Shown one piece after another: positions 58,412-64,000 of a stretch of DNA of 64,000 nt. The notes beneath the pieces are model-generated. The model ran no database searches. It saw only the letters and a program-made list of their open reading frames with translations, and had not been told where the DNA came from. Position 1 is the stretch's first letter. Every line of letters begins with the position of its first letter. Made by a program: the position numbers and the translations under genes. The DNA comes from Dyella lutea (GTDB taxonomy: Bacteria > Pseudomonadota > Gammaproteobacteria > Xanthomonadales > Rhodanobacteraceae), in the NCBI RefSeq assembly GCF_024158035.1, contig NZ_JAMZEK010000003.1, forward strand, positions 62,001-126,000, written 5' to 3'.

Positions 58412-59401
58412 ATGGCGCTGGCCGACGAGCTGCAGGAAAGCTGGTACGGCGATCGACGTCCGCCGGCCTGGACGTTCCCGCTGGCCGTGCTCTACGGCGG
58501 TCTCGCCGCCCTGCGCCGCGCGCTCTACCGCGCCGGGATCCTGCGTCGGGTCCGGCTGCCGGTGCCCGTGGTGGTGGTCGGCAACCTCACCGCCGGCGGA
58601 ACCGGCAAGACGCCGCTGACCCTGGCGCTGGTCGAGGCATTGCGCCGGCGCGGCTGGCAGCCCGGCGTGGTCAGTCGTGGCTACGGCGGCACGCAGCGCG
58701 AGCCGGCGTTGCTGGACGCTCAGCCCGACCCTGCCAGGTTCGGCGACGAGCCCTGCCTGATCCGCAGCAGCGGCACGCCGGTGGCGGTGGGGCGGAGCCG
58801 GCCCGCCGCCGCCGCGCTGCTGGTCGAGGCCGGCTGCGACGTGGTGATCGCCGACGATGGCCTGCAGCACTACCGGCTTGCCCGCGACGTGGAGATCTGC
58901 GTGGTCGACGGCGCGCGGCGTTTCGGCAACGGCCGGCTGCTGCCGGCCGGGCCGCTGCGCGAGCCGCTGTCGCGGCTGCGACGGGTCGATTTCCGCGTCG
59001 CCAACGGCGCCGCCGGGCCCGATGGGTTCCCGATGCGACTGGTCGGCGGCACCGCGGTCGCGCTGGTCGACGGCGAGGAGCGCCCACTGGCCAGCTTCGC
59101 CGGTACGCCGGTGGCCGCCGTGGCCGCGATCGGCCACCCCGACCGTTTCTTCGAGAGCCTGCGCACGCAGGGGCTGGAGGTGGACGGCCGCGCCTTTCCT
59201 GACCATCACGCGTTCAAGGCGGCGGATCTGGCGTTCGCGGGTGCGCGCCCGCTGCTGATGACCGACAAAGACGCCATCAAGTGCGTCCGCTTCGCCCGCC
59301 CGGGCTGGTGGCGGGCGCCGATCCGGGCGGAGTTGCCCGGGGCATTCCTCGATGCGCTCGACCTGCGCCTGCAGCAGGTGCGTTCCCACCGGGATCGCTG
59401 A
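58412..59401 (+). CDS. lpxK: Tetraacyldisaccharide 4'-kinase
   Basis: 329 aa. P-loop VVGNLTAGGTGKTPLTLALV, GVVSRGYGG, ADDGLQHYRLARD (catalytic Asp region) and FPDHHAF are LpxK markers. It phosphorylates the lipid A precursor at the 4' position on the inner membrane. Start at MALADELQESWYGDRRPP. kdsB, often next in related genomes, is absent here; the his operon follows instead. Confidence 0.96.
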   Translation: MALADELQESWYGDRRPPAWTFPLAVLYGGLAALRRALYRAGILRRVRLPVPVVVVGNLTAGGTGKTPLTLALVEALRRRGWQPGVVSRGYGGTQREPALLDAQPDPARFGDEPCLIRSSGTPVAVGRSRPAAAALLVEAGCDVVIADDGLQHYRLARDVEICVVDGARRFGNGRLLPAGPLREPLSRLRRVDFRVANGAAGPDGFPMRLVGGTAVALVDGEERPLASFAGTPVAAVAAIGHPDRFFESLRTQGLEVDGRAFPDHHAFKAADLAFAGARPLLMTDKDAIKCVRFARPGWWRAPIRAELPGAFLDALDLRLQQVRSHRDR

Positions 59402-59482
59402 CGTTCTCCCTGGGCGGAAGGGCCACGCTCCGCCGATCCGCACGAATGCACGCGCCCTCCGGGGCAGCCTGGGAGCGGGCGC

Positions 59483-59511
59483 TCGACAGGTAAAGGGCGG
59501 CCCGCTAGACT
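59483..59511 (+). promoter_or_regulatory. Candidate promoter of the his operon
   Basis: TCGACA, 17-base spacer, TAGACT. This would start transcription around 59518, at the left edge of the palindromic operator described next. The leader to the ATG would be only about 22 bases and has no Shine-Dalgarno sequence. Confidence 0.5.
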
Positions 59512-59518
59512 GTGCAAA

Positions 59519-59538
59519 TGTATTAACGCATTAGTACA
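59519..59538. promoter_or_regulatory. Palindromic operator, putative HisR site
   Basis: TGTATTAA-CGCA-TTAGTACA: two 8-base arms with one mismatch around a 4-base spacer, AT-rich in a GC-rich region. It spans the expected transcription start and ends 2 bases before the ATG of the TrpR-type regulator. Such placement implies autoregulation and control of the whole his operon. Confidence 0.7.
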
Positions 59539-59540
59539 TT

Positions 59541-59876
59541 ATGAAGCGCCGTTCCGTCGATCCAGAAACCCCCGCCGAGTCCGCCGAGCTGAGCCTCTGC
59601 GAGGCGTTGCTGTCGCTGAAGAATGCCGATGAGATGTCGGCGTTCCTGCACGACCTGTGCACGCCGGCGGAGCTGGAGGTGCTGGTCGATCGCTGGCGGG
59701 TTGTGCCGTACCTGCTCGAGGGCGTCTCCTACCGGGAGATCCACGAGCGGACCGCGGTCAGCATCACCACGATCGGACGGGTGGCCCGGTATCTCAACCA
59801 GGGCAGTGGCGGTTACCTGGCGGCGGCCGCGCGGGCGGCCCGGCGCCGCACGAATCAGAAAAAGGACAAGGCATGA
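59541..59876 (+). CDS. TrpR/YerC-family transcriptional regulator, likely HisR
   Basis: 111 aa. The TrpR-like helix-turn-helix spans LSLKNADEMSAFLHDLCTPA through EGVSYREIHERTAVSITTIG to RVARYLNQGSGGY, with a basic C-terminus. The YerC/YecD branch of TrpR proteins heads histidine operons and is proposed to use histidine as corepressor. The stop overlaps hisG (ATGA), and a palindrome sits on its promoter. Function is inferred from family plus context. Confidence 0.88.
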   Translation: MKRRSVDPETPAESAELSLCEALLSLKNADEMSAFLHDLCTPAELEVLVDRWRVVPYLLEGVSYREIHERTAVSITTIGRVARYLNQGSGGYLAAAARAARRRTNQKKDKA

Positions 59877-60766
59877 AGACGCGCGATCGCCTGCGCATTG
59901 CGATGCAGAAATCCGGCCGGCTCACCGAGCCGGCGCTCGACTTGCTCAAGCGCTGCGGGCTCACCTTCCGGCAGAGCCGCGACAAGCTGTTCTGCTTCGG
60001 CGAGGGCGAGCCGGTGGATCTGCTGCTGGTCCGCGACGACGACATCCCCGGGCTGATCGAGCAGGGCGTGTGCGACCTGGGCATCGTCGGCCGCAACGTG
60101 CTGGACGAGTTCTCGCTCACCGCCGGAATCGACGGCGCCCCGCTTAAGGAGTGGCGCCCGCTTGGCTTCGGCCGTTGCCGGCTGTCGGTCGCGGTGCCGC
60201 AGGAGATGACCTACGAGGGCGCGGCCAGCCTGGGCGGCCAGCGCATCGCCACCTCGTATCCCGGCCTGCTGGGCAAGTGGCTGCGCGATGCGGGCGTGCA
60301 GGCCCAGGTGGTGACGCTGGCCGGTTCGGTGGAAATCGCGCCCAAGCTCGGCACCGCCGATGCCATCTGCGATCTGGTGCAGAGCGGCGGCACGCTGGTC
60401 GCCAACCAGTTGCGCGAGGTGGACGTATTGCTGGAGAGCGAGGCGGTGCTGGCCGGCCCCGCCACGCTGCCGACCGACGAGCGCGGCGACATGCTGGAGC
60501 TGCTGTTCAAGCGGCTGGATGGCGTGATCCAGGTGAGCGAGTCGCGCCTGCTGCTGCTGCAGACCTCGCGCGGCAACCTGGAGGCGGTGACCCGGCTGCT
60601 GCCGGGCGGTCCGCAGCCGACCCTGCTGCCGGTGGCCGGGCAGCCGGACCAGCTGATGCTGCAGGCGCTGTGCGCGGGCGAGGTGAGCTGGCGCCAGCTG
60701 GAAGAGATCAAGAAGGCCGGTGCGCGCGAGATGTTCGTGCTGCCGGTGGAAAAGATGCTCGCCTGA
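59873..60766 (+). CDS. hisG: ATP phosphoribosyltransferase, long form
   Basis: 297 aa. [40 protein letters not shown] and the PRPP motif [20 protein letters not shown] mark HisG. The C-terminal ~70 residues are the regulatory HisG_C (ACT-like) domain, so this is the long, histidine-inhibited form. It catalyses the first step, ATP plus PRPP to PR-ATP. AAAGGACAAGG precedes the ATG. Confidence 0.97.
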
Positions 60767-60788: not shown

Positions 60789-62096
60789 ATGAAGCGGCTG
60801 GACTGGAACGCACTCGACGAAACTGCCTGGCGCGTGGCGCTGGCCCGCCCCGCGCAAGCCCGCGCGGACGAGCTCAAGCAGGGCGTGGCGGCGATCATCG
60901 CCCAGGTGCGCGCACACGGTGACGTGGCGCTGCGCGAACTGAGCGCGAAATACGACCGCTGCGCGCTGGACGCCATCGAGGTGACGGCCGCTGAATTCGA
61001 CGCGGCCGAGGCGGCACTCGATGAGGCGCTGAAGGCGGCGATCCGCGAGGCGGCCGGGCGCATCGACACCTACCACCGCGCGTCGCAGCCCAAGCCGGTG
61101 GGCGTGGAGACGGCGCCGGGCGTGCGCGTGGAACGCATGCTGCGCCCGATCACCCGGGTCGGGCTCTACGTGCCGGCCGGCACCGCGCCGCTGCCGTCCA
61201 CCGCGCTGATGCTGGGCGTGCCGGCGGCGATCGCCGGCTGCCGCGAGGTGGTGCTGTGCTCGCCCGCGCGCGCAGACGGTCGCTGCGACGAGGCCGTGCT
61301 GTACGCAGCGCGCGTGACTGGCGTGCACCGCGTGTTCAAGCTGGGCGGCGCCCAGGCGATCGCCGCGATGGCCTACGGCACGGACAGCGTGCCCAAGTGC
61401 GAGAAGCTGTTCGGCCCGGGCAACGCCTGGGTCACCGAGGCCAAGCTGCAGGTCTCCGGCGATCCGGACGGTGCCGCCATCGACATGCCGGCCGGTCCGT
61501 CCGAGGTGCTGGTGATCGCCGACGATGGCGCCAACCCGACGTTCGTCGCGGCCGACCTGCTCTCGCAGGCCGAGCATGGGCCGGACTCGCAGGTGGTGCT
61601 GCTCAGCCCCTCAGCCGCGCTGCTCGACGCCGTGGCCGCGGAAGTGGAGCGGCAGGTCGCGACGCTGCCGCGCAGCGAGACCGCGCTCAAGGCGCTGGCG
61701 CAGAGCCGCCTGATCGCGGTGGACTCGCTGGCCCAGGCGGTCGAGGTGAGCAACCGCTACGCGCCCGAGCACCTGATCATCCAGACTGCCGAGCCGCGCG
61801 CGTTGCTCGACGGCATCGAGAGCGCGGGGTCGATCTTCCTGGGATCCTGGACGCCGGAATCGGTCGGCGACTACTGCAGCGGTTCCAACCACGTGCTGCC
61901 CACATACGGCTACGCGCGCAGCTACAGCGGCGTGTCGGTGGCCAGCTTCGTCAAGCAGATCAGTGTGCAGGAGGTGAGCGCCGACGGCCTGCGCGCGATC
62001 GGTCCGTGCACGGTCACGCTGGCCGCCGCCGAGCAGCTGGAGGCGCACCGCCGCGCGGTGTCGATGCGGCTGGACGTGCTGGAGGGTCGCGCATGA
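60789..62096 (+). CDS. hisD: Histidinol dehydrogenase
   Basis: 435 aa. [63 protein letters not shown] and YAPEHLII are the family's NAD/Zn and catalytic motifs. It oxidises histidinol to histidine in two steps. It starts 22 bases after hisG and overlaps hisC (ATGA). Confidence 0.98.
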
Positions 62097-63151
62097 GCGT
62101 GCTCGACCTGGCGCGTCCCGAGATCCGCGCGATGCAGCCGTACTCCTCGGCGCGCATGGAGGCCAGCGGCGGGCAGATCCTGCTCAACGCGAACGAGTCG
62201 GCCTGGGCGCCGTTCGGTGAGGCGGCCGCCGGCTGCAACCGCTATCCCGATCCGCAACCGGCGGCGCTGGTCGATGCTCTGGCCGCGCTCTATGGCGTGC
62301 GCCGCGAGCAGCTGCTGGTCGGCCGCGGCAGCGACGAGGCGATCGACCTGCTGGTGCGCGCGTTCTGCCGCGCCGGCGAGGACGCGATCCTGATCCAGCC
62401 GCCGACCTTCGGCATGTACGCGGTGTGCGCGCGCATCCAGAACGCGGCGGTGATCGAGGCGCCGCTGGCCGCCGACTTCACGCTGGACGTCGACGCCGTG
62501 CTGGCGGCGATGACCCCGGCGGTGAAGCTGGTGTTCGTCTGCACCCCGAACAATCCGACCGGGCAGGTGATCCCGCTGGCGGCGGTGGAACGCCTGGCGC
62601 AGACGCTCGCCGGGCGCGCGCTGCTGATCGTCGACGAGGCCTACGTCGAGTTCGCCGACGCACCGGGCTTCGTTGGCCTGATCGATCGCCACGAGCATGT
62701 CGGCATCCTGCGCACGCTCTCGAAAGCCTGGGCGCTGGCCGGTGCGCGCATCGGCACGCTGCTGGCGAACGACGCGGTGATCGCGCTGCTGCGGCGGATC
62801 ATGCCGCCGTATCCGCTGCCCTTGCCCTGCGTGGATGCGGCCTTGGCCGCGCTGTCGCCGGAGGGCCAGGCCCAGGCGCGCGGGCACATCGCCGAGATCA
62901 AGGCCGAGCGAGCGCGCATGCGCACGGCGATCGCCGCGGTGCCCGGCGTGCGCGAGGTGCTGCCGTCGCAGGCGAACTTCCTCGCTGTGCGCTTCGATGA
63001 CGCCGGTGCTATCTACCAGCGCTTGCTCGCCGCCGGCATCGTGGTGCGCGACGTGCGCCGCTATCCGAATCTGGGCGATGCGCTGCGCATCACCATCGGC
63101 ACGGCGGAGGAAAACGCCCGCGTGCTGGATGTGCTGGAGCAGACCCGATGA
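62093..63151 (+). CDS. hisC: Histidinol-phosphate aminotransferase
   Basis: 352 aa PLP class II aminotransferase. [58 protein letters not shown], and the PLP lysine in [15 protein letters not shown]. It converts imidazoleacetol phosphate to histidinol phosphate. The start overlaps the hisD stop. A REP-like repeat follows. Confidence 0.97.
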
Positions 63152-63257: not shown

Positions 63258-64000
63258 ATGAGCCGCAAGATCCTTTTCATCGACCGCGACGGTTGCCTGA
63301 TCGTCGAGCCGCCGGACGAGCAGATCGACAGCTACGAGAAGCTCGAGCTTCTCCCCGGCGTGATCGGCGCGCTGCAGCGCTGCGTCGCCGCCGGCTACGA
63401 GCTGGTGCTGGTCACCAACCAGGACGGCCTTGGTACCGCGAGCTTTCCGCAGGACAGCTTCGACGGCCCGCACCAGCTGCTGCTTCGCATCCTGACCTCG
63501 CAGGGCATCGTGTTCCGCGAACAGCTGATCGACCGCAGCTTCCCGCACGAGGGACTGGACACGCGCAAGCCGGGCATCGGCATGCTGCGTCACTACCTGG
63601 CCGACGACGGCTGGAGCCGGGCGGCTTCGGCGGTTATTGGCGACCGCGAGACCGACATGCAGCTGGCCGCCAACCTCGGCGTGCGCGGTCTGCGCGTGGG
63701 GCCGCAGGGGCTGTCGTGGGACGCCATCGCACACCGCCTGCTCGATGCGCCGCGCACCGCCACGGTCCAGCGCAACACGAAGGAAACCCGGATCAACGTG
63801 AGCGTGGACCTGGATCGGGTGGCGGAGCCGAAGATCCACACCGGGCTGGGCTTCTTCGACCACATGCTCGAGCAGATCGGCAAGCACGGCGGCTTCGCAC
63901 TGGAGCTGAACTGCGACGGCGACACCCACATCGACGAGCACCACACGATGGAGGACTGCGCGCTGGCCCTAGGCCAGGCGCTGAAGCAGGCGCTGGGCGA
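63258..64000 (+). CDS. hisB: Bifunctional histidinol-phosphatase / imidazoleglycerol-phosphate dehydratase (cut by window edge)
   Basis: At least 247 codons; the 3' end lies outside. The N-terminal HAD phosphatase has FIDRDGCLI (Asp9, Asp11), [10 protein letters not shown] and [14 protein letters not shown]. The IGPD domain begins near residue 175 with [32 protein letters not shown] and the metal motif [17 protein letters not shown]. The fused form is typical of gammaproteobacteria. It follows the REP-like element, with only a weak GGAGAG ribosome site. Confidence 0.97.

Follow-up and report, generated by a model that had tools for sequence, protein, structure and literature searches.

A predicted HisR operator at the head of the histidine operon of Dyella lutea and a candidate second site beside gyrB in sister genera

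The stretch of Dyella lutea DNA analysed here (64,000 nucleotides of contig NZ_JAMZEK010000003.1, hereafter the window) carries the head of a histidine biosynthesis (his) operon, whose first gene, hisR, encodes a TrpR-family protein (Table 1). This protein matches PF01371 (82.7 bits, E 2e-23), lies over the cut-off of the YerC/YecD model TIGR02531 (59.8 bits vs 42.2) and under that of the TrpR equivalog model TIGR01321 (31.8 bits vs 67.25), and is encoded by the one TrpR-family gene in the genome. The hisR stop codon overlaps the start codon of hisG as ATGA. Three genes that we take to be hisD, hisC and hisB, based on operon position and their open reading frames, follow 3' of hisG in the same direction. 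The solved structures closest to the hisR protein by sequence are 3frw, 3g1c and 3kor, and the first two align across the region holding D38-R51 and the helix-turn-helix residues. At least 61 of the 63 proteins aligned retain D38, E44, D50 and R51, and the same holds for T76, T77 and R80 of the helix-turn-helix.

This gene is HisR, as described by Ashniev et al. in 2022 (BMC Genomics 23:558, PMC9413887). The sections of that paper covered here report HisR in 51 gammaproteobacterial genomes, including Xanthomonadales, and describe as family traits a helix-turn-helix core and six conserved acidic residues in a long helix 2, whose positions are unnumbered in the text. They predict a site of consensus TGTAnTArnnnnyTnTTACA directly 5' of hisR in the his operons of Proteobacteria, describe proteobacterial HisR as acting almost solely on the his operon to which it belongs, and refer to Su et al. 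2018 for a TrpR-like repressor that acts on the his operon of Xanthomonas oryzae. The window shares both the his linkage and the upstream operator with these systems, and its site fits 13 of the 14 specified consensus positions.

The core operator, TGTATTAACGCATTAGTACA at positions 59519-59538, matches the search pattern with zero mismatches, and eight of its ten dyad positions are symmetric. It ends two bases (TT) 5' of the hisR ATG at 59541, and an extended 24-bp dyad (59517-59540) reaches the last base before that codon. Only 0.05 chance matches with up to three mismatches are expected in the window, and this is the sole place in the whole genome (4.4 Mb) with a match that close. The reversed pattern, used as a control on the same genome, gave three forward matches and one reverse match at this threshold, which is therefore not stringent by itself; the window site itself departs nowhere from the pattern. 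A first-pass annotation of this DNA had proposed a genome search for further sites near his or histidine-transport genes. When run, this search yielded none within three mismatches besides the operon's own site, which speaks against histidine transporters as extra targets in this genome.

Gene and site are conserved together. Of 60 surveyed genomes (own included), 57 encode the hisR protein, and the upstream palindrome is present in all 57, with scores of 21.0-44.4 bits that are partly circular, since the matrix was built from these same 57 sites. The search always returns a best match, but best scores in other stretches of genomes from the same family were mostly below zero. An independent scan with TGTANTAAYGCRTTANTACA, allowing up to two mismatches, found the site in 52 of the 60 genomes, compared with one of 60 for the backward control. 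In 56 of the 57 genomes hisG is the same-strand neighbour of hisR, and in the remaining one (G045) the two are divergent. There, hisR and hisG share one operator (locus L073, site 1851-1870), and the palindrome stands two nucleotides 5' of the inferred hisG ATG, keeping the operator-TT-ATG spacing. Because this rearrangement keeps the site before hisG, it is the his genes that the site goes with.

The first-pass annotation had drawn the palindrome as two half-sites around four free bases, immediately 5' of a YerC/TrpR-family gene that overlaps hisG. Its position and the family models confirm that placement, and the half-sites are as described. The centre, rather than being free, is Y-G-C-R in the relatives, where Y and R occur in 57 of 57 hisR genomes, G in 52 and C in 55. 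The logo of these sites has T6, A7, T14, A15, A18 and C19 invariant in all 57, flanking TT in 47 and 55 of the 57, and an A two bases 5' of the core in 49.

The association extends beyond this survey. In the named loci, which are the best 80 of 139 relatives found and are close relatives of the window, the site lies 22 nucleotides 5' of the ATG in all 80, with a spacer of TT in 67, CT in 10, TC in two and AT in one; the titles of these 80 are mostly Dyella, Rhodanobacter and Luteibacter, genera of the family Rhodanobacteraceae. Dyella ginsengisoli LA-4 has the same core operator as the window. In an even draw of 143 genomes from the class searched with TIGR02531, nine had a match, eight of them over the cut-off (own included). 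Five of the seven matches outside the order adjoin a hisG and have site scores of 17.2-37.9 bits; locus L187 has the arrangement operator-TT-ATG exactly and L184 has operator-CT-ATG. A match below the family cut-off (L191) has a site score of 5.3 and no hisG match nearby.

Three surveyed genomes lack hisR. In one of them, G029, hisG has no match either; the other two, G043 and G053, each have a divergent hisG (28 and 32% identity, respectively). Before the hisG of G043 (L071:2859-2970) there is a sub-threshold match to the Rfam His_leader model (33.9 bits vs a gathering threshold of 49), which hints at an exchange between repressor and attenuator; the same search listed no match in G053.

Upstream of the window's operator, one sigma70-like promoter was found, compared with a mean of 0.0 in shuffled sequences, and seven bases separate its -10 end from the core operator. 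Among the 57 hisR genomes, 56 had a scorable promoter and one had none. The -10 element of the best promoter ends 5-12 nucleotides 5' of the operator in 38 of these 56 (6.2 in shuffles) and 7-9 nucleotides 5' in 31, and the mean promoter score is 8.1 vs 5.7 in shuffles. All four genomes of the window's genus carry TCGACA/TAGACT with seven bases to the operator, two bases nearer than in the commonest arrangement of the relatives, where a TTG-type -35 is combined with a TATGAT-like -10 that lies nine bases from the operator.

The -10 position across relatives and the A conserved in 49 of 57 genomes put the probable transcription start at about 59517, which would make the operator +1 to +24 of the transcript and place the start of translation at +25. 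That the operator would cover the transcription start is likewise indicated by the -10 boxes lying 7-9 nucleotides from the site in those 31 promoters. The A at 59517 may also owe its conservation to being part of the operator. These data agree with the earlier placement of the palindrome at the predicted start, and with the description of the leader as nearly absent and lacking a Shine-Dalgarno sequence: the 22 nucleotides 5' of the hisR ATG consist of the operator plus TT, with no Shine-Dalgarno among them.

In E. coli and other gammaproteobacteria, the his operon is controlled by a leader attenuator (Rfam RF00514). In the window, the His_leader model has no match in 59000-60200 even at E 10, terminator-like sites in 59300-59900 number zero, and no frame in 59402-59560 holds more than two His codons. 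Attenuator control was rejected for want of a leader match in Rfam, in agreement with the first-pass statement that no attenuator-like His leader is present.

The distance between operator and gene bears on whether the palindrome is recognized as DNA or acts in RNA. In 29 of the 57 genomes the palindrome starts exactly 22 nucleotides 5' of the start codon, so that operator, two bases and ATG follow one another. This spacing would fit an RNA element in which the first 24 nucleotides of the transcript fold into a 10-bp hairpin that reaches to the start codon and governs how the mRNA is translated or how stable it is, and such a hairpin does form in the predicted structure of the mRNA 5' end. Across all 57 genomes, however, the palindrome starts 16 to 117 nucleotides 5' of the aligned hisR start (up to 67 in all but one case), and the RNA fold z-scores are weak (-0.61 and -1.63). 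Departures from symmetry are mixed. Among 47 distinct named sites, from close relatives, G.U outnumbers A.C by 69 to 42, but 38 of the 69 G.U cases come from one column pair common to those relatives; among 51 distinct sites of a wider set, counted over the core ten pairs, A.C outnumbers G.U by 63 to 41, where RNA pairing would favour G.U. Given these mixed counts, we do not favour control by an RNA hairpin and regard it as very unlikely; recognition of the DNA is the simpler reading.

A comparison with related regulators bears on the ligand. HisR/YerC of Bacillus subtilis and other Firmicutes belongs to the same TIGR02531 family, B. subtilis having matched in the control of the class search, and has the same his regulon, but the Firmicutes operator consensus differs (cacTTTAnnnnnnTAAAgtg; PMC9413887, sections covered). 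Escherichia coli TrpR is of the same Pfam family and has a similar palindromic operator, but its ligand is tryptophan and its regulon is another. Ashniev et al. note the resemblance between the HisR and TrpR operators and, in the sections covered, describe the mode of ligand recognition by HisR as unknown; both points would suit a regulator of the his genes that senses tryptophan, or an intermediate or derivative of the histidine pathway. We judge another ligand of this kind to be unlikely: the gene context is his, the window protein scores under the TrpR equivalog cut-off, and the HisR of Ruminococcus gnavus, a Firmicutes protein and the only one for which these sections report histidine-dependent binding, requires histidine to bind.

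The site is present in the window, it is unique in the genome, it is conserved with its gene, and its usual place is between the -10 element and the start codon. On this basis, HisR very probably represses the hisR-his operon through the palindrome, with histidine the probable co-repressor. A TrpR-fold dimer of HisR, probably loaded with histidine, would bind the palindrome at 59517-59540. With positions +1 to +24 of its own transcript occupied, RNA polymerase would be blocked sterically at the promoter, and hisR and the his operon would be repressed when histidine is plentiful. The transcription start, the binding, the steric block and the ligand are the steps that we infer in this model. We found no support for the alternatives that HisR activates the operon or that the site is non-functional and the operon constitutive. 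Coverage of +1 to +24 is a repressor's position, which argues against an activator, and retention of the site over many families argues against a relic; we consider both very unlikely. The sole genomic site at the predicted start, its conservation in 57 of 57 genomes, the negative searches for an attenuator and the published HisR together favour the first-pass proposal of an autoregulatory operator that acts by repression rather than attenuation.

Several observations weigh against repression through this operator, in addition to the partial circularity of the site scores. The window site departs from the published proteobacterial consensus at column 16, with G for T, and its promoter was called by consensus only. 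The eight surveyed genomes without a pattern match comprise the three that lack hisR and five hisR genomes whose site exceeds two mismatches; likewise, 31 of 233 genomes of the family have no site at up to two mismatches. Outside the order, one protein over the family cut-off (locus L190) has a site score of only 10.7 and no hisG match nearby. The parts of the literature covered gave neither binding nor expression data for any HisR from Proteobacteria, and the X. oryzae case is described as unstudied in mechanism in the corresponding sections of PMC9413887.

Table 1. Features at the head of the his operon (window positions)
Feature	Position	Strand	Basis
Sigma70-like promoter of the hisR-his operon (-35 TCGACA 59483-59488, 17 nucleotides, -10 TAGACT 59506-59511)	59483..59511	+	Consensus call
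Inferred transcription start (A, two bases 5' of the core operator)	59517	+	Inferred from -10 position; A in 49/57 genomes
HisR operator (predicted); core 20 bp TGTATTAACGCATTAGTACA 59519-59538	59517..59540	+	Pattern search, genome uniqueness, conservation
hisR, TrpR-family repressor (YerC/YecD type), 111 amino acids	59541..59876	+	PF01371, TIGR02531
hisG, ATP phosphoribosyltransferase, start overlaps hisR stop	59873..60766	+	PF01634, TIGR00070
Putative hisD	60789..62096	+	Operon position and open reading frame
Putative hisC	62093..63151	+	Operon position and open reading frame
Putative hisB start, runs off the window	63258..64000	+	Open reading frame list

The 233 family genomes had been scanned with the pattern at up to two mismatches, and 202 have a site, 33 of them more than one. 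When one site per genome is counted as the his site, 37 extra sites remain, all of which were inspected. Twenty-four of these lie between gyrB and a gene for a TPR protein (for example L062:3001-3020, L106:1001-1020 and L125:1501-1520), about 300 nucleotides before the TPR gene and behind a strong hairpin that resembles a gyrB terminator, with a T run in some but not all cases. In the four loci that are long enough (L062, L063, L066 and L067), tonB is next after the TPR gene. Rfam searches of two gyrB-TPR loci gave no match, and no sigma70 promoter keeps a constant spacing to the gyrB site (forward 2 vs 3.9 in shuffles, reverse 6 vs 4.2).

Conservation of these 24 second sites is biased by their selection with the pattern. 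An unbiased sample was therefore provided by 30 further genomes picked by the TPR protein, mostly without a pattern-level second site, 29 of which had the protein. Of the 24 genomes from genera g5, g13, g17, g19 and g21, 23 (all but G112) have a site before the TPR gene that outscores all 30 shuffles; none of the five from genera g10, g18, g20, g22 and g23 does. The 23 sites are weak: seven reach the lowest his-operator score (21.0), 15 score 7-20 and that of G119 scores -0.1. In another set of genomes, the second site is absent or unclear in G019 (g17, best -5.3), G009 (-18.3) and G017 (-0.9), and none of the four genomes of the window's genus has it.

From these sequence patterns, we give roughly even odds to the proposal that HisR gained a second, usually weaker operator between gyrB and the TPR gene in sister genera of the same family (Dyella-type and relatives, but not the genus of the window), as a lineage-specific target or a road-block. 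If so, HisR would couple TonB-energised uptake to the supply of histidine, or stand as a road-block that separates gyrB from the operon after it. A bound gyrB site would be a target of proteobacterial HisR outside the histidine genes; none was found in the literature searched, and the main text of PMC9413887 mentions neither Dyella nor Rhodanobacter, TonB or gyrB, the supplements of that paper being left aside in both cases.

Other extra sites occur in one or two genomes each, and their neighbours are not claimed as targets. A HisR-like site stands shortly before a Glu/Leu/Phe/Val-type dehydrogenase gene, probably gdhA, in G179 (L148:1001-1020) and G180 (L149:1001-1020); among the 26 genomes of genus g18 that were searched, no others closely match this gene. 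In G033 a comparable site is found before gltB (L065:3001-3020). Further sites lie before a gene for a PKD/PPC-domain protein in G010 (by eye, the same gene in G239) and before an HlyD-type membrane-fusion gene in G126, with G130 judged by eye to be alike. Several other extra sites fall inside long open reading frames.

The HisR family and its predicted site before hisR have already been described, and the window is a further example, ordinary but well supported. Relative to the sections of PMC9413887 covered, supplements aside, the new elements are the YGCR centre, the 24-bp extent, the geometry of -10, operator and ATG with its recurrent two-nucleotide spacing, the rearrangement in G045 and the second site beside gyrB. 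The operator is sharply defined and suited to a binding test, of which none is reported for a proteobacterial HisR in the literature searched. These findings support the view that, in most sampled members of the order and in scattered relatives, histidine synthesis is under a DNA-binding repressor and not under the textbook attenuator.
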